NCBI RefSeq assembly: GCF_000284095.1
Contig: NC_017068.1
Span: 992,001 to 1,056,000 of the forward strand
DNA from: Selenomonas ruminantium subsp. lactilytica TAM6421
Lineage (GTDB): Bacteria > Bacillota > Negativicutes > Selenomonadales > Selenomonadaceae
Length of the DNA stretch: 64,000 nt
Direction: 5' to 3'
Positions 7,368 through 34,796 of the stretch are shown here, piece by piece; positions within the stretch are counted from its first letter, which is position 1, and each line of letters opens with the position of its first letter. The notes under the pieces were generated by a model. It saw nothing but the letters and a program-made list of their open reading frames with translations. It was not told the origin of the DNA and searched no databases. Made by a program: the position numbers and the translations under genes.

Positions 7368-7399
7368 GAAAAACATATTTTGATAATTGAATTATTGGG

Positions 7400-7551
7400 A
7401 TCAGGTGTCGCAAGACTCAATAGAAAAGCCGGTTGAAGGCCGGCGCGGTCACGCCACTGTAGCGGGGAGCGAATCTGCACAAGGCAAGTCACTGGGGAAA
7501 CCTGGGAAGGCGCAGAGGAGCAATGATCCGGAGCCAGGAGAACTGCCTGAT
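7400..7551 (+). promoter_or_regulatory. Cobalamin riboswitch
   Basis: A clear cobalamin aptamer. The closing stem pairs ATCAGG (7400-7405) with CCTGAT (7546-7551). The core GCCACTGT (7454-7461) is present, and a B12 box GAGCCAGGAGAACTGCC lies just before the 3' closing stem. It is followed by a terminator at 7638-7669, so the expected control is premature termination when cobalamin is plentiful. Downstream genes import corrinoids. Confidence 0.95.
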
Positions 7552-7637
7552 TGACAATCACCGTTATTACCTGCGAGGGATGGGGAGGGGATTTGCCGTT
7601 TTTCTGTGCTGTTGAGTAGTATTAGTGTACAGTTTTC

Positions 7638-21713: not shown

Positions 21714-23844
21714 GTGTTCCGCCGTATAGGCGGCTTAGAAAAAAGAAAAGATTAATCATGTCTCTGCCGTTTCGTGTTCCGCCGTATAGGCGGCTTAGAA
21801 ATGTAGCTTATCAGCCACTTTCTGCTGGCCTTTGTGTTCCGCCGTATAGGCGGCTTAGAAATGAACAACGTTCGCTCGAACTCGAACAGCAACGTGTTCC
21901 GCCGTATAGGCGGCTTAGAAATCTTGCCTTTACGCGGCTACTATCATTGACACGTGTTCCGCCGTATAGGCGGCTTAGAAAAACAGCCCCCACCGTGCCT
22001 GTGACCTTGCCTGGTGTTCCGCCGTATAGGCGGCTTAGAAAAATCCCTACTCCTGCCATAAATATGCCATACCGTGTTCCGCCGTATAGGCGGCTTAGAA
22101 AGTAATAATCAAGCGGTAAAAAGTCAATCCTGCGTGTTCCGCCGTATAGGCGGCTTAGAAATGTTGAACCATCACCCAACCACACACCGAGAAGTGTTCC
22201 GCCGTATAGGCGGCTTAGAAATTGCGAATCTTCGTCCATGAATTGCAATTTATGTGTTCCGCCGTATAGGCGGCTTAGAAAAGCAGAAGAAAAAGCAAAG
22301 TTGGAGTTTGAGTGTGTTCCGCCGTATAGGCGGCTTAGAAATTTCTCGCCTATCGCATGATAAGCCGCCTTAAGTGTTCCGCCGTATAGGCGGCTTAGAA
22401 ATATCGCGATGATTGATGCGAGCGTCAATATTGGTGTTCCGCCGTATAGGCGGCTTAGAAACATCCAAAAGAAAATCGTCAGGACAACGTGGGGGTGTTC
22501 CGCCGTATAGGCGGCTTAGAAACACTATTAATCGCTTGTTGAATAGCCGCCGTATGTGTTCCGCCGTATAGGCGGCTTAGAAAAACACTGACGGGCAGCT
22601 GAAAAGCAAAACTATGTGTTCCGCCGTATAGGCGGCTTAGAAATGTCCAACCATTAAACAGACATTTTTCGACCAGTGTTCCGCCGTATAGGCGGCTTAG
22701 AAAAAAGCCTGCAAAGCATTGCTCCACTCACCAAAGTGTTCCGCCGTATAGGCGGCTTAGAAACTTCAGCGCATTTTTGCTGACACCCGCGAGGGGTGTT
22801 CCGCCGTATAGGCGGCTTAGAAATGCAACTTTCGATGCAGCAGCATCAGCCCATCGTGTTCCGCCGTATAGGCGGCTTAGAAATGCTGCAACCATTTCTT
22901 ATATCTTTTCCGACAGTGTTCCGCCGTATAGGCGGCTTAGAAAGTAATCAGACGGCCTACAATGCGGATGATAATGTGTTCCGCCGTATAGGCGGCTTAG
23001 AAAAAAATCGGAAAAGTTTGCATTAGGTGCAGATAGTGTTCCGCCGTATAGGCGGCTTAGAAAGATTACCTCACGCCAGTCTGCGACGTGATAAGTTGTT
23101 CCGCCGTATAGGCGGCTTAGAAAGCATCCCGTGGTTCGGTCGTCGCTTGGCATCCGTGTTCCGCCGTATAGGCGGCTTAGAAATTGCCGTTCAGGGACAG
23201 AGTTGTTCAATGGGCGTGTTCCGCCGTATAGGCGGCTTAGAAATGGATAAGCGAGTCCAAAATAAAGCGGGAATGGTGTTCCGCCGTATAGGCGGCTTAG
23301 AAATATGCAACGGCGGTGGAAATTCTGGTTGAGTAGTGTTCCGCCGTATAGGCGGCTTAGAAAATTGTTTGCTCGACTTGATAAACAGGCATTATGTGTT
23401 CCGCCGTATAGGCGGCTTAGAAAAGTATGGCTGAAATCATGGGCTTCCAAAAAGCGTGTTCCGCCGTATAGGCGGCTTAGAAAAAGAGCAGATGGAGAGG
23501 GTTCGATCGGAACGCGTGTTCCGCCGTATAGGCGGCTTAGAAATTCGGCTCCGGCCGTACCATTGACCTGCCTGCCGTGTTCCGCCGTATAGGCGGCTTA
23601 GAAATAATGTGCTTTTTTTGTCTGTCATTTTCCCCGGTGTTCCGCCGTATAGGCGGCTTAGAAAACACATCAACTTGAGCACCACATTCGCACCTGGTGT
23701 TCCGCCGTATAGGCGGCTTAGAAATTTACGCTTTGGGCTGTGTCAGAGTCCAACGAGTGTTCCGCCGTATAGGCGGCTTAGAAAAATTGCCACCCGATAA
23801 CGGGATACGTTTAACAGTGTTCCGCCGTATAGGCGGCTTAGAAA
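21714..23844 (+). CRISPR. Type I-F CRISPR array, 36 repeats and 35 spacers
   Basis: A 28-bp repeat starts at 21714 and recurs every 60 bases (61 at three places) until 23817-23844. The repeat holds the stem-loop CCGCC-GTATA-GGCGG and ends in CTTAGAAA. Stem position, the GTATA loop and this 8-base handle are nearly those of the well-studied Pseudomonas I-F repeat cut by Csy4, differing mainly in the stem and the 5' bases. Spacers are 32 bases, except three of 33 (at 22462, 22523 and 23544). All repeats are identical except the one at 23096, whose first base is T rather than G. The last repeat is not degenerate. Confidence 0.98.
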
Positions 23845-23851
23845 AGGGGAT

Positions 23852-23879
23852 TTTACTTGTCGATATTAAAAAATATAAT
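23852..23879 (+). promoter_or_regulatory. Possible promoter of the csy operon
   Basis: TATAAT at 23874-23879 with a weak TTTACT at 23852-23857 (16-base spacing) in the A+T-rich gap between the last repeat and csy1. It would let the interference genes be expressed apart from the array. Confidence 0.45.
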
Positions 23880-23937
23880 AAAAACGAAGATAAATGACAG
23901 ATAATATTGAACAATATAAATAAGTGAGGTGATGTTG

Positions 23938-25092
23938 ATGAGTGTGTTGACAGATTATGTGCAAGCAGAATCTGAAAAGAAAGGTGTACCGCCCGGGCAG
24001 TGGCTGGCTGATACGGCTAAGAATGCCAGTAAGTGTCAGTTTGCTACGCATATAGGCCGTTTTATCAATCCGGATGTGACAGTCAATTGGCAGGCAAAGA
24101 TAAATGGCAAACTGGATGATGTATATGTATCGACAGGTTCGGTGGCTTGTTCACCGGATATTTTTGTGGCGGCTAATTATTTGGCAACTGCCAGCTTGCT
24201 TCAATTGCGTTTGGAGGACGGAAAAACTTTCTACGAGCATTTGCAGGCTGCGGATGATTGTTTGCGGGAAGATTTTCAAATCATGCAGGCGGATTATGAG
24301 CAGGTGCGTGAAGATTTGTTGACTGTAAAGTCGGATGTGTTGCCTGATTCAACAGACAAGCGGTTACGGCAGGTGTTCTTTCCTGTGGGAGAGGATGATT
24401 ACCATTTATTGACAGTTTTGCCTCCCGCCAGCTTGATGCAGGAAGTGCGTGCGCGTATTCGAGCCATGGAAGATGGAGCACGGCAGGCGTGCAGCAAGAA
24501 GTCGGAGACCTATGGCAGTGACCATCGGCGCATCTATAATCTGGTGCAGACCAAATTCGGCGGAACGAAGCCACAAAACATCTCTTATGGAAATAATCGG
24601 CAGGGCGGGCGAAGCTATATGCTGCCAGCTATGCCGCCTGTTCTGGAAAAGCGTACGATAATCTATCCTCGTAAGGATTTTTTCAAGGAAACTTTACGGT
24701 TGCGGGATTTCATAGGTCTTTTCCAGCGTCTGCATAAGCGATATGTTGATAAAAGGAATAATATGGAAATCAGGCAGGTTGTTCGCAGCATAGAGCGACA
24801 GATAATGGAAATGGTTCTGTTGAGAGTATATGTACTGCGGGAGAAATGTGGCTGGACGGACAATCGCAGTCTGAGCAGGGCACAGTCAATCTGGCTGGAT
24901 GATAAGTATGCAGAAGACCGGCAGATTGATGAGGAATGGCAGAAGAAGCTGGCAGGTGAGTTTGCTGACTGGCTGATGGCTGCTTATGAGAAAGTCATGA
25001 AACGGGAAAAGATAGAGTTCGGTGATGGAGAACTGACCGCACTGCGAAAAGAAGTGGCAGAATTTATTCGTAGTGATCTGCAAAAGCAGTAG
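23938..25092 (+). CDS. csy1: Type I-F Cascade large subunit Csy1 (Cas8f)
   Basis: A 384-residue Csy1, the PAM-recognising and 5'-handle-capping part of the I-F surveillance complex. Assignment rests on locus order and on family cues such as GGTKPQNISYGNNRQGGRSY and LPAMPP in the middle, a typical Csy1 segment. It is somewhat shorter than the Pseudomonas protein (about 430). The ATG at 23938 is chosen because GAGGTGA at 23926-23932 gives normal spacing. It begins 93 bases after the last CRISPR repeat and is followed 13 bases later by csy2. Confidence 0.93.
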   Translation: MSVLTDYVQAESEKKGVPPGQWLADTAKNASKCQFATHIGRFINPDVTVNWQAKINGKLDDVYVSTGSVACSPDIFVAANYLATASLLQLRLEDGKTFYEHLQAADDCLREDFQIMQADYEQVREDLLTVKSDVLPDSTDKRLRQVFFPVGEDDYHLLTVLPPASLMQEVRARIRAMEDGARQACSKKSETYGSDHRRIYNLVQTKFGGTKPQNISYGNNRQGGRSYMLPAMPPVLEKRTIIYPRKDFFKETLRLRDFIGLFQRLHKRYVDKRNNMEIRQVVRSIERQIMEMVLLRVYVLREKCGWTDNRSLSRAQSIWLDDKYAEDRQIDEEWQKKLAGEFADWLMAAYEKVMKREKIEFGDGELTALRKEVAEFIRSDLQKQ

Positions 25093-25105
25093 GAGGGATA
25101 GGAGG

Positions 25106-26038
25106 ATGATTAAGCAATATCTGATGATTCCCCACCTGCAGATTCAAAACGCAAATGCGGCTAGCAGCCCTTATACGGTAGGTTTTCCAGCAATGACCGC
25201 CTGGCTGGGGATGACTCATGCGTTGCAGCGGCGGATCCGGCAGAGGGATGAACTGCAAGAAGTCGGCTTGCCGCGTGTGGCGGTCATTTGTCATGCCTTT
25301 GATTTGCAGGTGTTCAATGAAAAGGGTAATTTTTATGGCTCTTTGATCGGAACAGCGAATCCGCTGAAGAAGAGCAGGAAAACTGGTGAGTTTGAACGAC
25401 CGCCCTTTGTTGAAGAGGCCCGTTGCCATTTAGAAATCAGCCTATTGGTGGAACTGACGGGAATGAAAGGCAGCCTCAAAGAGCGTTTTGAGGAAACTGT
25501 TCGGCGAGAATTACCGCGTCTGAAGGCGGCTGGGGGCGATATTGTCCTGCGGCACGGTGAGCAGCAGGATTGGCAGGTTGTGTCCGTTGACGATGATGAC
25601 GAGCGGGATGTAAACAGGGTGAAGGCAAGGTTAATGCCGGGTTATGCAATCATTGAGCGGCAGGATTTGCTTCAGCATGAGAGCGGCAAAGATGCCTTGG
25701 ATAGTTTGCTGAATGCTATGCAGGTGCAGTATACAGCCAATCGTGATGCGGAAGGGGCTTTTCTTGGATGGCAGAGAAGCAAGGTGGCTGCGGATGGCTG
25801 GCTGGTGCCGATAGCAGTTGGTTTCCATGATTTGTCTGGCAATTTGCAAGTGAAGGAACAACGTTCCTATGAATATGAACATCATTTTGTGGAACCTTTG
25901 GTAACGGTGGGAGAATTTGTGATGCCCTATCGTTGTGAGGCTATTCAGGAAATGATGTGGGAATATGAATATAATGAAGCAGAAGGTTTGTATCTGTGTC
26001 GGAATATGGGGAAACAAGATTTGCGTGGGGAGGAATAG
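25106..26038 (+). CDS. csy2: Type I-F Cascade subunit Csy2 (Cas5f)
   Basis: A 310-residue Cas5f that pairs with Csy1 at the 5' end of the crRNA. The N-terminus MIKQYLMIPHLQIQNANAAS and PYTVGFPAMTAWLGMTHALQ is the family pattern (RAMP fold start and Gly-Phe-Pro loop). ATG 25106 follows AGGAGGG (25091-25097). Short gaps of 13 bases before and 2 bases after indicate a single message with csy1 and csy3. Confidence 0.94.
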   Translation: MIKQYLMIPHLQIQNANAASSPYTVGFPAMTAWLGMTHALQRRIRQRDELQEVGLPRVAVICHAFDLQVFNEKGNFYGSLIGTANPLKKSRKTGEFERPPFVEEARCHLEISLLVELTGMKGSLKERFEETVRRELPRLKAAGGDIVLRHGEQQDWQVVSVDDDDERDVNRVKARLMPGYAIIERQDLLQHESGKDALDSLLNAMQVQYTANRDAEGAFLGWQRSKVAADGWLVPIAVGFHDLSGNLQVKEQRSYEYEHHFVEPLVTVGEFVMPYRCEAIQEMMWEYEYNEAEGLYLCRNMGKQDLRGEE

Positions 26039-26040
26039 AA

Positions 26041-27051
26041 ATGGCTAAAAAGGCAGCGGATATCGCATCGGTATTGGCGTTTGAAAAGAAATTAGTCGTC
26101 TCGGATGGCTATATGTATGGCACATGCTGGGATGATGAACATAAGGTAAAGGCTGAACCATTGAAGCTGGTGGAAAAATCAGTACGGGGGACGATTTCCA
26201 ATCGGCTGAAGCCGGCAGTGCAGAATGATCCGGCGAAATTGAATGCAGAGGTAGAAAAACCTAACCTGCAACAAGTGGATTCCTGCGCATTAGGCATGGA
26301 ACAGGATACCCTGAAGCTGGCCTTTACCATCAAGGTATTGAGTGGTGTGGAAAAGCCGTCGGCCTGCAACAATGCAGCTTTTGCGCAAAGTTATGCTGCG
26401 GCAGCCAAAGGCTATATAGAAAAGACAGGCTTCAAGGAATTGTCTTACCGCTATGCCTATAATATTGCCAGCGCCCGTTTCCTATGGAGAAACCGGCTGG
26501 GGGCGGAGAAAATCGATGTCTGTGTCAAGGTTGGCAGCTGGGAGCAGAAATTTGATGCGTATACCTATTCCTTGCGTGACTTTACAGAACATGAGGAAAT
26601 AAAGGCTTTGGCAGGAAAGATTGCAGCAGCATTATCCGGTGAGGAGCCATATCAATTCATTGAAGTAGAGGCTTATACAAAACTGGGTGTTGGGCAAGAA
26701 GTATATCCCAGCGAAGAATTGGTATTCGATAAGGGCAACAGCCGCAAGAGCAAGATCTTATATCATGTGGAGGGGGTAGCCGCAATGCATTCCCAGAAAT
26801 TGGGCAACGCTTTGCGGACAATTGATACCTGGTATCCGGAATTTGAAAGCCCGGAAGGAGCTGGGCCGATTGCTGTCGAGCCGTATGGTGCAGTGACGAA
26901 CTTGGGAAAAGCCTTCCGGAATCCTAAGGAGAAAGTTGATTTTTATACCTTGTTTGATAAGTTCGCTCTGGGAGAACCGTTGGCCAATGCAGAAGAGGAG
27001 CATTATGTCATGGCGGTATTGGTTCGTGGCGGTGTATTTGGCAAGGGGTGA
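26041..27051 (+). CDS. csy3: Type I-F Cascade backbone subunit Csy3 (Cas7f)
   Basis: A 336-residue Cas7f; in known I-F complexes six copies form the helical backbone along the spacer. Recognised by position and by segments such as LSYRYAYNIASARFLWRNR and LRTIDTWYPEFESPEGAGPI, plus YGAVTNLGKAFRNP near the end. ATG 26041 lies 2 bases after the csy2 stop behind GGGGAGG. Its stop overlaps an alternative GTG start of cas6f. Confidence 0.95.
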   Translation: MAKKAADIASVLAFEKKLVVSDGYMYGTCWDDEHKVKAEPLKLVEKSVRGTISNRLKPAVQNDPAKLNAEVEKPNLQQVDSCALGMEQDTLKLAFTIKVLSGVEKPSACNNAAFAQSYAAAAKGYIEKTGFKELSYRYAYNIASARFLWRNRLGAEKIDVCVKVGSWEQKFDAYTYSLRDFTEHEEIKALAGKIAAALSGEEPYQFIEVEAYTKLGVGQEVYPSEELVFDKGNSRKSKILYHVEGVAAMHSQKLGNALRTIDTWYPEFESPEGAGPIAVEPYGAVTNLGKAFRNPKEKVDFYTLFDKFALGEPLANAEEEHYVMAVLVRGGVFGKG

Positions 27052-27056
27052 GCAGC

Positions 27057-27635
27057 GTGAAGTTTTATCAGGAACTCACTTTGTTGCCGGATGCGGAGAT
27101 CAATGAGAACCATATCTGGAGCAAATTGTATCAGCAACTTCACTTGGCTTTGGCAACGCAGATGGAAGACGGCAGTAAGGGGCATATTGGTGTCTCGTTT
27201 CCGCAATATGAAGATGGCAGAAAGGTTCAACTGGGCAGTAAGTTGCGGATATTTGCTGAAACGGAAGCTCAATTGGAAGCATTAGCGATAAAGAAATGGC
27301 TACAGAGGTATGAAGATTACATTCATATGACCAGCATTCGTCCTGTGCCGAAGCGGGTGCATGGCTATGCAATTTATCGCCGTTATCATCAGGAAGCAAG
27401 TTCTATGCAGAAGGCCAGACGCTACGCCAAGCGACATGATGTATCTTATGATGAAGCCTTGAAATTATTTCCGCAAGAATGCAGGGATAAGAAAGTTCCC
27501 TTTGTGCAGATGCATAGTGAAACGAATCAGCAAAAATATCGCCTTTGTATAGAACGCATTGTACAGGAGTCGTATCAGGACGTTGGTTTTGGCAGTTATG
27601 GTCTGGATAACCAGTCAACTGTGCCGGAATTTTGA
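27057..27635 (+). CDS. cas6f: CRISPR RNA endoribonuclease Csy4 (Cas6f)
   Basis: A 192-residue Cas6f that cuts the array transcript at the base of the repeat hairpin and stays bound to the 3' stem. The catalytic His is present in YQQLHLAL (matching KLHQAL of the Pseudomonas enzyme), followed by IGVSFPQYEDG and the arginine-rich helix ARRYAKRHDVSYDEA that reads the stem. The C-terminus YGLDNQSTVPEF also matches the family. GTG 27057 is preferred (AAGGGG at 27043-27048) over GTG 27048. Last gene of the locus, followed by a terminator. Confidence 0.95.
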   Translation: MKFYQELTLLPDAEINENHIWSKLYQQLHLALATQMEDGSKGHIGVSFPQYEDGRKVQLGSKLRIFAETEAQLEALAIKKWLQRYEDYIHMTSIRPVPKRVHGYAIYRRYHQEASSMQKARRYAKRHDVSYDEALKLFPQECRDKKVPFVQMHSETNQQKYRLCIERIVQESYQDVGFGSYGLDNQSTVPEF

Positions 27636-27753: not shown

Positions 27754-28326
27754 TCAGTCGAAAACCTTGACGCGGGTTGTAATGTCTTCAGGCTCTTTGG
27801 CATCAGGTTCAGCAGCAATGCCGCCAAATGGCATTTGCGCAACGAGTTTCCATGAATCCGGGAGATTGAATAGTTTTTTTACAGCATCGTCAATGACTGG
27901 ATTGTAGTGCTGGATATTGGCACCAACATTCAGGTCACGCAGAGCTGTCCAGATGGTGAATTGCAGCATGCCATTTGCCTGTTGCGACCAGATGGGGAAA
28001 TTGGGGGCATAAGCAGGGTACTGTTCCTGTAATTTTTTTACGACCTCTTCATCATAGAAGTACAGCACCGTGCCAGCTCCGGCCTTGAAACTGTCGATTT
28101 TCTCGCGAGCGACTTTTCCGCCAAACGCAGTGTAAATCGCATCCCATAGCTCATCATGTTTGCTGTTCATGGCTAAGACAACGCGGGCTGATTTCATGTT
28201 GAAAGCATCAGGAACCAGCTCTGTGGTCTGTTGGACAGTTTCCTTGATCTTGATTGCATCAACCGGCAGCTCCTTTACAAGCTGGTAGTAACTGCGGCGC
28301 TGGTGGATGGACTCAAGCATACTCAT
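27754..28326 (-). CDS. Nitroreductase-family oxidoreductase
   Basis: A 190-residue FMN-dependent nitroreductase-fold protein. It starts SMLESIHQRRSYYQLVKELP, where IHQRRSYY is the phosphate-binding Arg region, and ends with a Gly motif MPFGGIAAEPDAKEPEDI. It most resembles the HBN1-like branch found in fermentative Firmicutes. NAD(P)H-linked reduction of an unknown acceptor is the family expectation. ATG 28326 follows GGAGGG. It is convergent with the cas operon and not obviously part of it. Confidence 0.9.
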   Translation of the reverse strand: MSMLESIHQRRSYYQLVKELPVDAIKIKETVQQTTELVPDAFNMKSARVVLAMNSKHDELWDAIYTAFGGKVAREKIDSFKAGAGTVLYFYDEEVVKKLQEQYPAYAPNFPIWSQQANGMLQFTIWTALRDLNVGANIQHYNPVIDDAVKKLFNLPDSWKLVAQMPFGGIAAEPDAKEPEDITTRVKVFD

Positions 28327-28430
28327 GGTGTTTCCCTCCGTTTTCCTTTAAAAAGATTCATGGTCTTTCATCTATAGGCTCTATTCGTCAGAGGTTGTTT
28401 ATATCCTGCTGATGCTGGCTGCAGAAATAT

Positions 28431-28460
28431 TTGGACAATTAGACTCCTTCATGTTAGAAT
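28431..28460 (+). promoter_or_regulatory. Possible promoter of a short RNA
   Basis: TTGGAC (28431-28436), 18 bases, TAGAAT (28455-28460). A terminator follows at 28490-28530 with no reading frame between, so the product would be about 65 bases. Confidence 0.4.
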
Positions 28461-28465
28461 AAGAT

Positions 28466-28530
28466 TAGGAGAGCGTTATATACGTGACGGAGTCCCCAAG
28501 GTTTTGTGTATTGACTTGGGGACTCTTTTT
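28466..28530 (+). ncRNA. Candidate small RNA 1
   Basis: The predicted transcript begins TTAGGAGAGC (28466-28475) and ends in a strong intrinsic terminator: GAGTCCCCAAG (28490-28500) with CTTGGGGACTC (28515-28525) and five T. Its 5' end is complementary to GCTCTCCTAA at 28606-28615 of the next candidate. No coding potential is seen. It may instead be one arm of a mobile inverted-repeat element. Confidence 0.35.
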
Positions 28531-28557
28531 GCTGTAAAAATAATTTTCAATTATTTA

Positions 28558-28586
28558 TTGATTTTCATTCTCAATGATGCTATATT
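28558..28586 (+). promoter_or_regulatory. Promoter overlapped by a Fur-like box
   Basis: TTGATT (28558-28563), 17 bases, TATATT (28581-28586). TGATTTTCATTCTCA (28559-28573) matches 11 of 14 defined positions of the classical Fur box TGATAATnATTATCA and covers the -35. A Fur-family regulator is encoded at 34344. Confidence 0.45.
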
Positions 28587-28592
28587 ATATAC

Positions 28593-28676
28593 AGGCTTTC
28601 GTTAAAGCTCTCCTAAAATATAATACACAGCAAAGAACCGGACGTACTGCTCATGCGTCCGGTTCTTTGTCTTCGG
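28593..28676 (+). ncRNA. Candidate small RNA 2 with anti-ribosome-site motif
   Basis: From the Fur-boxed promoter a transcript of roughly 80 bases would carry an unpaired GCTCTCCTAA, which is complementary to ribosome-binding sites of the AGGAGAG type and to small RNA 1. It ends in a 13-bp hairpin, AAAGAACCGGACG (28632-28644) with CGTCCGGTTCTTT (28656-28668). The T run after the hairpin is weak, and the stem overlaps the 3' end of the gene on the other strand, so this is tentative. Confidence 0.33.
28632..28668. terminator. Hairpin at the convergent ends of 28651 gene and small RNA 2
   Basis: A perfect 13-bp stem with an 11-base loop. On the - strand its first arm encodes the last residues of the hypothetical protein, so coding end and terminator overlap. 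Confidence 0.6.
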
Positions 28677-29169
28677 CATTATCGTTTACACCACAGTTGT
28701 CAAAATCACTGCCGTCGCAATCATCACTGCTGCCGGTGTCATAGTAGGAGCTGGAATGGCTATGAGAAAAATGGTCGTCGTCATCGCAGAAGGCATGAGC
28801 ACCGAAAATGTTGAAATTGTAAATGGTTCTATTGCTGCTATTAGATTGATGAGTGCGGCCATCTGAATATCGATCACATTCGGCCAGTTCATCTAGCGCA
28901 TCCTGAAGGCTATAGCCGTTGTCCAGCAGGTACTCGATATCATTTACAGCGAAATATTGACCATTGGGAGCTTTATATTGGGAAAGGTATTTGGGGCAGC
29001 GTGAAAGTGCATCCTTGGCATCTTGGAGACTGTAGCCGTTATTTATCAGGTATTCGATATCGTTGCGCTCGAAAAACTGACCGCTGGGGGCACAGTAGGG
29101 GGAAAGTCTATTCAATTCGTCATAGACTTTTTGTGTTTCGGAACTGGTCGTAATATTGTTGGATGACAT
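28651..29169 (-). CDS. Hypothetical protein with two tandem repeats
   Basis: I do not recognise a named family. The 172-residue protein has two copies of a unit of about 39 residues: YCAPSGQFFERNDIEYLINN and YKAPNGQYFAVNDIEYLLDN, each followed by GYSLQDA and a Cys-containing helix. After them come a short Asn/Phe segment, a His-Asp stretch (DDDDHFSHSHSSS) and an acidic C-terminus with several Cys, which might bind metal. No signal peptide or membrane segment is seen. The start at 29169 is set by GGAGGG eight bases upstream; an earlier ATG at 29208 lacks a site. Nearby Fur-like box and metal-friendly tail make a role in metal handling conceivable, but that is speculation. Confidence 0.7.
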   Translation of the reverse strand: MSSNNITTSSETQKVYDELNRLSPYCAPSGQFFERNDIEYLINNGYSLQDAKDALSRCPKYLSQYKAPNGQYFAVNDIEYLLDNGYSLQDALDELAECDRYSDGRTHQSNSSNRTIYNFNIFGAHAFCDDDDHFSHSHSSSYYDTGSSDDCDGSDFDNCGVNDNAEDKEPDA

Positions 29170-29256
29170 AGAAAGTTCCCTCCGTATAAACGATGATATG
29201 TGTGACAAGTTTTTACGGACTTACCTTATCATAAATTTATTAAATTTTTCTTAGTT

Positions 29257-34343: not shown

Positions 34344-34796
34344 ATGGCACAGACATTTACAATGGATGATTTGAAGCAGCGTTTGCAGGCGCGTCAGCAT
34401 AAGATGACGCCGCAGCGGCAGACGGTGCTGCAGGTATTTTTGGACCATCCGGGCGAACATCTTTCGGCAGAGGATGTGCATGGTATCCTGCGGCAGGATA
34501 AATCAGAAATTGGTCTGGCTACAGTTTATCGCAGCTTGGAGCTGCTGTCGGAATTGGAAATTTTGCAGAAGATGGAATTCGGGGATGGTTGCAGCCGTTA
34601 TGAGGTGAACACCACAGATCCATCGGAGCATCATCATCATCATTTGATTTGCACGACCTGTGGCAAAGTCACAGAATTTGAAGACGATCTGCTGGACGAT
34701 CTGGAAGGTGATATCCAGAAGAAGATGGGCTTCCATGTGCTGAACCATCAGGTGAAATTCTTCGGTACATGCAAGGAGTGCCAAAAGGAAAATTGA
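34344..34796 (+). CDS. fur: Fur-family metalloregulator
   Basis: A 150-residue Fur-family repressor. The N-terminal winged helix includes KMTPQRQTVLQVFLDHPGEH and the recognition helix segment IGLATVYRSLELL. The dimerisation part has the metal site HHHHHLICTTCGKVTEFED, and two CxxC pairs (CTTC, CKEC) form the structural zinc site. The His run is natural for this family. Iron, zinc or peroxide sensing cannot be told apart reliably; the extended His motif and GLATVYR suggest true Fur. The hemZ start overlaps its stop. Confidence 0.92.
   Translation: MAQTFTMDDLKQRLQARQHKMTPQRQTVLQVFLDHPGEHLSAEDVHGILRQDKSEIGLATVYRSLELLSELEILQKMEFGDGCSRYEVNTTDPSEHHHHHLICTTCGKVTEFEDDLLDDLEGDIQKKMGFHVLNHQVKFFGTCKECQKEN

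Follow-up and report, generated by a model that had tools for sequence, protein, structure and literature searches.

A 324-base intergenic gap in Selenomonas ruminantium subsp. lactilytica TAM6421 contains two adjacent units that probably encode a Fur-repressed, iron-sparing small RNA (sRNA), here called RNA2, and a target-mimic RNA, RNA1, that would act as its sponge. The gap spans positions 28327–28650 of the window, a 64,000-nucleotide stretch of contig 1 (NC_017068.1, positions 992,001 to 1,056,000; the genome has 10 contigs) to which all coordinates below refer, and lies between open reading frames (ORFs) at 27754–28326 and 28651–29208, both on the − strand. Read straight from the sequence, it holds two promoter-hairpin units, both on the + strand, as a preliminary description of this DNA had claimed and as rechecking of the letters bore out. 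Its statement that the units are free of reading frames stands only in part, since the RNA2 terminator enters the end of ORF 28651–29208 by ~21–26 bases. Its first interpretation, a regulator repressed by Fur and flanked by a sponge, is supported by a Fur-type box, an anti-Shine–Dalgarno (SD) core in RNA2, predicted Fe–S targets, and RNA1 complementarity that is kept amid sequence change. We assigned the following features:

28431–28460, + strand: RNA1 promoter of the sigma-70 type, with −35 element TTGGAC (28431–28436), an 18-base spacer and −10 element TAGAAT (28455–28460).
28465–28474, + strand: RNA1 element TTAGGAGAGC.
28466–28530, + strand: RNA1, ~65 nt, the proposed sponge, with 5′ AGGAGAGC, a small hairpin (GCGT..ACGT) and a terminator hairpin whose loop is TTTTGTGTATTGA.
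28467–28474, + strand: RNA1 site A, AGGAGAGC, complementary to RNA2 GCTCTCCT, with 10 matching bases if TT is transcribed.
28490–28530, + strand: RNA1 terminator.
28505–28512, + strand: RNA1 site B, TGTGTATT, in the terminator loop, complementary to RNA2 AATACACA.
28558–28574, + strand: Fur-type box TTGATTTTCATTCTCAA, overlapping the RNA2 −35 region.
28558–28586, + strand: RNA2 promoter, with −35 element TTGATT (28558–28563), a 17-base spacer and −10 element TATATT (28581–28586), alike in most copies inspected.
28594–28671, + strand: RNA2, ~78 nucleotides (nt), the proposed Fur-repressed iron-sparing sRNA.
28595–28608, + strand: RNA2 5′ hairpin GCTTT-cgtt-AAAGC; several relatives have a larger form with a variable insert.
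28607–28616, + strand: RNA2 element GCTCTCCTAA.
28607–28629, + strand: RNA2 unpaired core GCTCTCCTAAAATATAATACACA, an anti-SD seed plus AATACACA.
28630–28671, + strand: RNA2 terminator hairpin, with a covarying stem and a conserved loop CTGCTCA (28647–28653), overlapping the end of ORF 28651–29208.
34344–34796, + strand: Fur-family regulator gene (PF01475, E 1.3e-38), a candidate repressor.

RNA2 belongs to a family that recurs across the Selenomonadaceae. A covariance model (A4) built from 21 copies selected by the motif AAAGCTCTCCTA recovers seven copies in the TAM6421 genome at E 5.1e-10 or better, the next match standing at E 3.2. The ORFs flanking the six other copies look unlike one another, and two copies are 97% alike. 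DNA searches found RNA2 in 38 of 80 genomes (TAM6421 included), among them 22 of 22 of its genus. The model search, run over 151 genomes and 30 genera of the family, gave 1 to 7 matches each in 99 genomes from 17 genera. Extended over the class, the model search gave matches in 35 of 200 genomes, and outside the family these were convincing only in genomes G049 and G052. A pattern scan returned 92 stretches from Selenomonas, Mitsuokella, Centipeda, Quinella and unclassified Selenomonadaceae, Selenomonadales or Veillonellaceae. The preliminary description had proposed looking for conservation and covariation in relatives, and both are found: the unpaired core CTCTCCTAAAATATAATACACA is nearly constant across the A4 copies, unlike the terminator stem, which covaries with kept double changes in 6 of 9 pairs. 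Because these copies were chosen by AAAGCTCTCCTA, constancy is an unselected result for ATATAATACACA alone. In genus g3 the core reads CTCTCCTAAATACAATACACA.

Other searches delimit the family. Matches in G226 and G240 (E ~1e-4) were rejected, as neither a seed nor a Fur box could be seen by eye, and a plasmid collection searched with the C10 copy gave no match. At family cut-offs Rfam finds nothing in the gap, including no RyhB or PrrF, and in the whole window it reports only a T-box leader (475–697) and a cobalamin riboswitch (7386–7564). A permissive scan of the gap returned RsaA (21.1 bits, cut-off 50), NrrF (12.3 bits, cut-off 60), STnc240 and others, which we took as chance.

The RNA2 promoter was originally said to overlap a Fur-like box, and this holds: the box at 28558–28574 sits on the −35 region and recurs across copies. 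It is the sole match in the window within 3 mismatches of TTGATAATNATTATCAA, and since 27 of 100 shuffles also contain at least one such match, the single box is weak alone. Across copies it becomes convincing, because 84 of 96 distinct RNA2 promoter regions score at least 11/14, compared with a mean of 3.1 per 96 in shuffles. Over these regions the best match to TGATAATNATTATCA has a mean of 11.75/14 versus 8.6 in shuffles, and it falls at one position in 72 of the 96. Within the TAM6421 genome, five of the seven RNA2 copies carry the box.

The predicted pairing of the RNA2 core with ribosome sites, also proposed earlier, is supported by complementary sites that are enriched before Fe–S genes and by an ilvD site that tracks RNA2. 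We defined candidate targets as genes with TTAGGAGAG 3–11 bases before ATG in six genomes, a pattern present at 33 places versus 17 for the backward pattern. After 5 places with ORFs under 60 amino acids were dropped, the remaining 28 formed 17 ortholog groups. As a control we took 30 loci from the 166 places with AAAGGAGAA; 6 had ORFs under 60 amino acids and 2 (L248, L260) were unparsed, leaving 19 groups. Fe–S proteins account for 7 of 17 groups behind TTAGGAGAG versus 1 of 19 behind the control (Fisher 0.013). The seven are a DHODB-type Fe–S reductase subunit, IlvD, endonuclease III, SDH_alpha, a NIR_SIR protein, a radical SAM protein and IorA, where IlvD, SDH_alpha and IorA belong to families that we take to be Fe–S proteins. 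The ten other groups include HisZ-like, GH88, NagA-like, ribonucleotide reductase, DUF2292 and DegT proteins. Neither AprA-like flavoproteins (L211, L223) nor the control's SdhA/FrdA-like flavoproteins (L253 group) were counted as Fe–S, and the gene names of L265 and L274 were assigned by eye. In the TAM6421 genome the sequence TAGGAGAG occurs at 11 places, with Fe–S proteins in 6 of 10 real genes (Fisher 0.0026 versus the AAAGGAGAA control groups), and this list adds an aconitase-family enzyme to the Fe–S candidates.

The ilvD site is found in five of the six genomes, in both genera, and TGTGTA, which belongs to the other half of the sequence complementary to RNA2, stands just before the site in 3 of 4 leaders of the reductase-subunit gene. 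In 53 genomes (57 places, less two partial genes, one contig-edge gene and one second paralogue), we scored ilvD leaders for bases complementary to RNA2 no more than 28 bases from the start. At least 8 complementary bases occur in 19 of 30 RNA2-positive versus 2 of 23 RNA2-negative genomes, the negatives comprising 17 named in the model search and 6 judged so from their absence in the positive list. One of the two negative genomes with a site, G041, holds a divergent RNA2 that the DNA search matched, and the other, G025, shares its genus with RNA2-positive G084. Counted by genus, with three mixed genera taken as positive, the split is 11 of 16 versus 0 of 12 (Fisher 2e-4). Among background genes, at least 8 complementary bases occur in 4 of 151 from RNA2-positive and 0 of 39 from RNA2-negative genomes, a set that is biased low because 30 loci were chosen for another SD sequence and that itself includes several ilvD leaders (L297, one of the 4 matches, and some in the negative set). 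Taken with the family spread, the Fur-fitting box, the constant core and the covarying stem, the Fe–S enrichment and the ilvD site that tracks RNA2 make RNA2 look like a regulator of the RyhB/FsrA/IsrR type.

RNA1 offers AGGAGAGC and the terminator-loop sequence TGTGTATT, both complementary to the RNA2 core. Downstream of its promoter the DNA reads AGGAGAGCGTTATATACGTGA and then the terminator hairpin, and ~63 bases separate the end of RNA1 from the start of RNA2. Similar promoters precede other RNA1 copies, and no Fur-like box was seen at 28431–28460. By the rule of thumb that transcription starts 6–7 bases past the −10 element, RNA1 would begin at ~28466–28468, so that TTAGGAGAGC may lie outside the transcript by its first base or two. 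The pairing first suggested between the RNA2 core and the RNA1 start is upheld as complementarity, with those one or two bases perhaps outside RNA1. Around the −35 element, AGAAATATTTGGACAA (28423–28438) is little changed before many RNA1 copies and may bind a regulator.

Fourteen aligned RNA1 copies have double changes in 6 of 15 predicted pairs. An RNA1 model (R2) finds four copies in the TAM6421 genome, all beside RNA2, and three of the seven RNA2 copies there lack RNA1. The model has matches in 12 of 101 family genomes; the stretches examined in the two weakest, G113 (E 1.1e-4) and G035 (E 8e-4), contained no RNA1 elements, and these two were not counted. At E 1e-7 or better, 15 of 19 matches lie 62–72 bases from an RNA2 match and 4 have none beside them, and all nine genomes with such a match carry RNA2. 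We applied an exact-match shuffle test of the unpaired parts to 8 of 14 adjacent pairs, after a weak duplex-energy test, and between 0 and 6 of 5000 shuffles equalled the tail-plus-loop complementarity of a pair. In genus g3 the RNA1 loop GTGTATTG fits the altered g3 RNA2 by 8 or 9 bases.

Judged by sequence, the proposed sponge takes at least three forms: the Selenomonas form upstream of RNA2, an upstream Mitsuokella form with a loop–loop match, and a downstream form in two S. ruminantium genomes. RNA1 of Mitsuokella (M. multacida, L041; M. jalaludinii, L079; a metagenome genome of the same genus, L073) occupies the same place with a different sequence. It keeps AGGAGAG, adds TGCTAACGA (L041, L073) or AACGAAAG (L079) fitting the Mitsuokella RNA2 5′ stem, and has a loop TGAGCAG that fits the RNA2 terminator loop CTGCTCA. 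Predicted duplex energies of the Mitsuokella tails with their own RNA2 are −24.0, −28.7 and −28.7 versus −14.5 to −21.6 with Selenomonas RNA2, and were equalled by 0, 0 and 2 of 400 shuffles. In strain GACV-9 (L083) and the metagenome genome SIG241 (L084), an otherwise unrelated RNA with AGGAGAG and a GTGTATTGG loop lies downstream of RNA2. Among 108 distinct RNA2 copies, a bipartite RNA1-type RNA is upstream in 18 and downstream in 2. RNA1 is complementary to the predicted target-binding part of the sRNA, above chance and kept in evolution, with a weaker signal by duplex energy. Elements complementary to RNA2 have lasted in three RNA1 forms that are otherwise dissimilar, which supports a dedicated sponge, and because the forms share little else, the sponge may have arisen more than once.

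Several observations weigh against an iron-sparing RNA2 paired with a sponge. In the TAM6421 genome the pattern TAGGAGAGN{3,11}ATG occurs at 11 places, no commoner than its backward control at 13, so that the case for the targets depends on which genes they are and on conservation; the ilvD statistics ignore phylogeny beyond genus; and two RNA2 copies of this genome, L006 and L007, have no Fur box. RNA1 stands beside only 20 of the 108 distinct RNA2 copies, a lower bound because some copies lie near stretch ends. The eight pairs in the shuffle test are related to each other, and taken by itself the L002 tail falls short of significance (p 0.06). Ranked by duplex energy against 400 shuffles, eight Selenomonas tails came out ahead of only 71 to 94.5% (22 to 116 equalled them) and their loops were equalled by 15 to 99; pairs L030 and L033, wrongly cut, stand outside this result. 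Selenomonas tails also pair equally well with Mitsuokella RNA2, which makes the specificity one-sided. The RNA1-like hairpin of L187 and L188 has no T-run and may be an mRNA leader, possibly a regulated one.

It is unlikely that RNA2 spares iron while RNA1 is no sponge at all, being instead a further sRNA or the relic of a target leader whose pairing has no consequence. Such an account would draw on AGGAGAG being ordinary ribosome-site sequence, on solo RNA1 units and RNA1-like leaders, including the 4 of 19 RNA1 matches without adjacent RNA2, and on the many RNA2 copies, the majority, that have no RNA1 alongside. It fits poorly with the two or three distinct stretches of complementarity in each RNA1, whose joint count so few shuffles reached, with the Mitsuokella-specific complementarity, and with the presence of RNA2 in every one of the nine RNA1 genomes at a narrow spacing in most matches. 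We consider it quite improbable that RNA2 answers to PerR, Zur or redox rather than to iron and Fur. The TAM6421 box TGATTTTCATTCTCA is imperfect, and 29 of 94 promoter regions reach 11/14 for the PerR consensus; over the same regions and a narrower position range, however, 77 do so for Fur and 0 for Zur, mean fits being 11.7/14 for Fur, 9.7 for PerR and 8.0 for Zur, and the predicted targets are iron enzymes.

Two further accounts deny RNA1 or both units a regulatory RNA function of the proposed kind. RNA1 might be a tiny mRNA whose small peptide begins at a GTG soon after AGGAGAG, with RNA2 repressing its translation, and a GTG does follow at about the same place in 10 copies examined. The frame, however, is not kept (copies read VTESPRFCVL.., VKKSPQGFVY* and VKEPPRFVYC..), several relatives have GCTAA or GCTTT in place of GTGA, and the terminator comes at once; we rejected the peptide since its reading frame is not conserved across copies, and regard this account as very improbable. 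The preliminary description also offered a 150-bp mobile element with inverted ends. That the gap holds such a miniature inverted-repeat transposable element (MITE), or another mobile repeat of this type, and has no RNA function can hardly be right. Several dispersed copies in the TAM6421 genome with unlike neighbours, and two nearly identical copies, would suit it, but homology passes the supposed ends TTAGGAGAGC and GCTCTCCTAA into the RNA1 promoter and the RNA2 terminator, so that the inverted repeats do not bound it and its edges lie outside them. The units are also separable, with RNA2 lacking RNA1 in 3 of 7 TAM6421 copies and RNA1 occurring without RNA2; terminator stems differ by paired changes; the box keeps one position in 72 of 96 promoter regions; and matches occur in 17 genera, with few per genome.

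An iron-sparing RNA2 with RNA1 as its sponge would work as follows; the units, box, conservation, covariation, complementarity and target-site conservation are read from the DNA, and from them we infer transcription, Fur binding and repression, a translational block and sponge titration. With iron present, Fur on the box over the −35 region would keep RNA2 off; when iron is scarce, RNA2 would be made from several loci. Its unpaired core GCUCUCCUAAAAUAUAAUACACA would pair with UUAGGAGAG ribosome sites in the mRNAs of Fe–S enzymes and block their translation, the proposed targets being ilvD, the ferredoxin-reductase-like subunit, the aconitase-family enzyme, endonuclease III, IorA and others. 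RNA1, separately transcribed, short and terminator-ended, would act as a target mimic that offers AGGAGAGC and UGUGUAUU to the RNA2 core. While its promoter is active it would lower free RNA2, setting a threshold or speeding recovery once iron returns. As no Fur-like box was seen before RNA1, our guess is that it may form when cells are rich in iron and sequester any RNA2 that leaks. Selenomonadaceae are common in the rumen and mouth. The broader idea that the two RNAs form a multi-copy cassette, an iron-sparing sRNA with a dedicated sponge whose recurring linkage sets the iron threshold in this family, stands about evenly in the balance.

FsrA of Bacillus subtilis is under Fur control. We judge RNA2 to be a new family within a known iron-sparing kind, its unusual feature being the linked cognate sponge, and set it apart from FsrA and IsrR by their published descriptions. 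As described in passages of PMC9410917, FsrA is an iron-sparing sRNA whose C-rich motif binds SD sequences and requires three helper proteins; RNA2 has CUCUCCUAA instead of a C-run, and several copies. Staphylococcus aureus IsrR resembles RNA2 as predicted here in its promoter Fur boxes, Fe–S enzyme targets and single-stranded C-rich regions modelled on SD sites, but is 174 nt long with three stem-loops and three C-rich regions, and those passages mention no linked sponge (PMC9410917). RyhB and PrrF1-PrrF2 are iron-repressed and iron-sparing, and PrrF occurs in two copies, tandem in P. aeruginosa, according to sections of PMC4211561; these are proteobacterial, whereas RNA2 is dispersed in up to seven copies. 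RosA of B. subtilis resembles RNA1 in its proposed role, being a free-standing sponge whose G-rich stretches bind RoxS and FsrA, but is CcpA-repressed and is not described beside its partner in the portions of PMC8216469 that present it, whereas RNA1 lies close to RNA2 and the pair recurs together. The parts of two structured-RNA surveys drawn on here show no such RNA, by a method that tends to miss sRNAs (PMC8632094, PMC6429828), and one reports an ilvD-leader motif in Veillonella (PMC8632094). No iron-sparing sRNA in Selenomonadaceae appears in the titles or abstract openings among the literature matches listed. If our interpretation is true, RNA2 would be the RyhB equivalent of this family, with a first target list, and the RNA1/RNA2 pairs would form a natural series for following sRNA–sponge co-evolution over many genomes.

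Variants of both units occur elsewhere. Units resembling RNA1 without RNA2 (L185, L186, L187, L188) precede ruvA-like and FliB-like genes, named by eye. In G049 (L279/L358) and G052 (L355), from two other families of the class, tandem RNA2-like units carry GAGGCTCTCCAAAATATAAAATACAC, each behind a long palindromic Fur-type box (TTGATATTGATAATCAATATCAA in G049, TTGATATTGATTCTCAATATCAA in G052). Between GGCTTTCG and AAAGCTCTCC or AAGCTCTCC, the RNA2 5′ hairpin carries inserts that differ greatly in length and sequence (L041, L046, L049, L051–L053, L141). In G019 and G020 an IS110-family transposase element (PF01548, PF02371; L203 1–1710) lies inside RNA2 genes after CTCTCCTAAAAT, its left end carrying its own RNA2 3′ half with terminator. 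Four different RNA2 terminators on the right flanks (L281, L282, L283, L284) indicate that insertion struck one and the same site in several RNA2 copies, and the element may be targeted to the RNA2 gene.

Around the gap, the left flanking ORF (27754–28326) is a nitroreductase gene (PF00881) and the right one (28651–29208) has a sub-threshold Pfam match only. Farther left, positions 21758–27635 hold repeat-bearing ORFs that by eye resemble a CRISPR array, and after them comes a gene for Csy4 (PF09618, 27048–27635).
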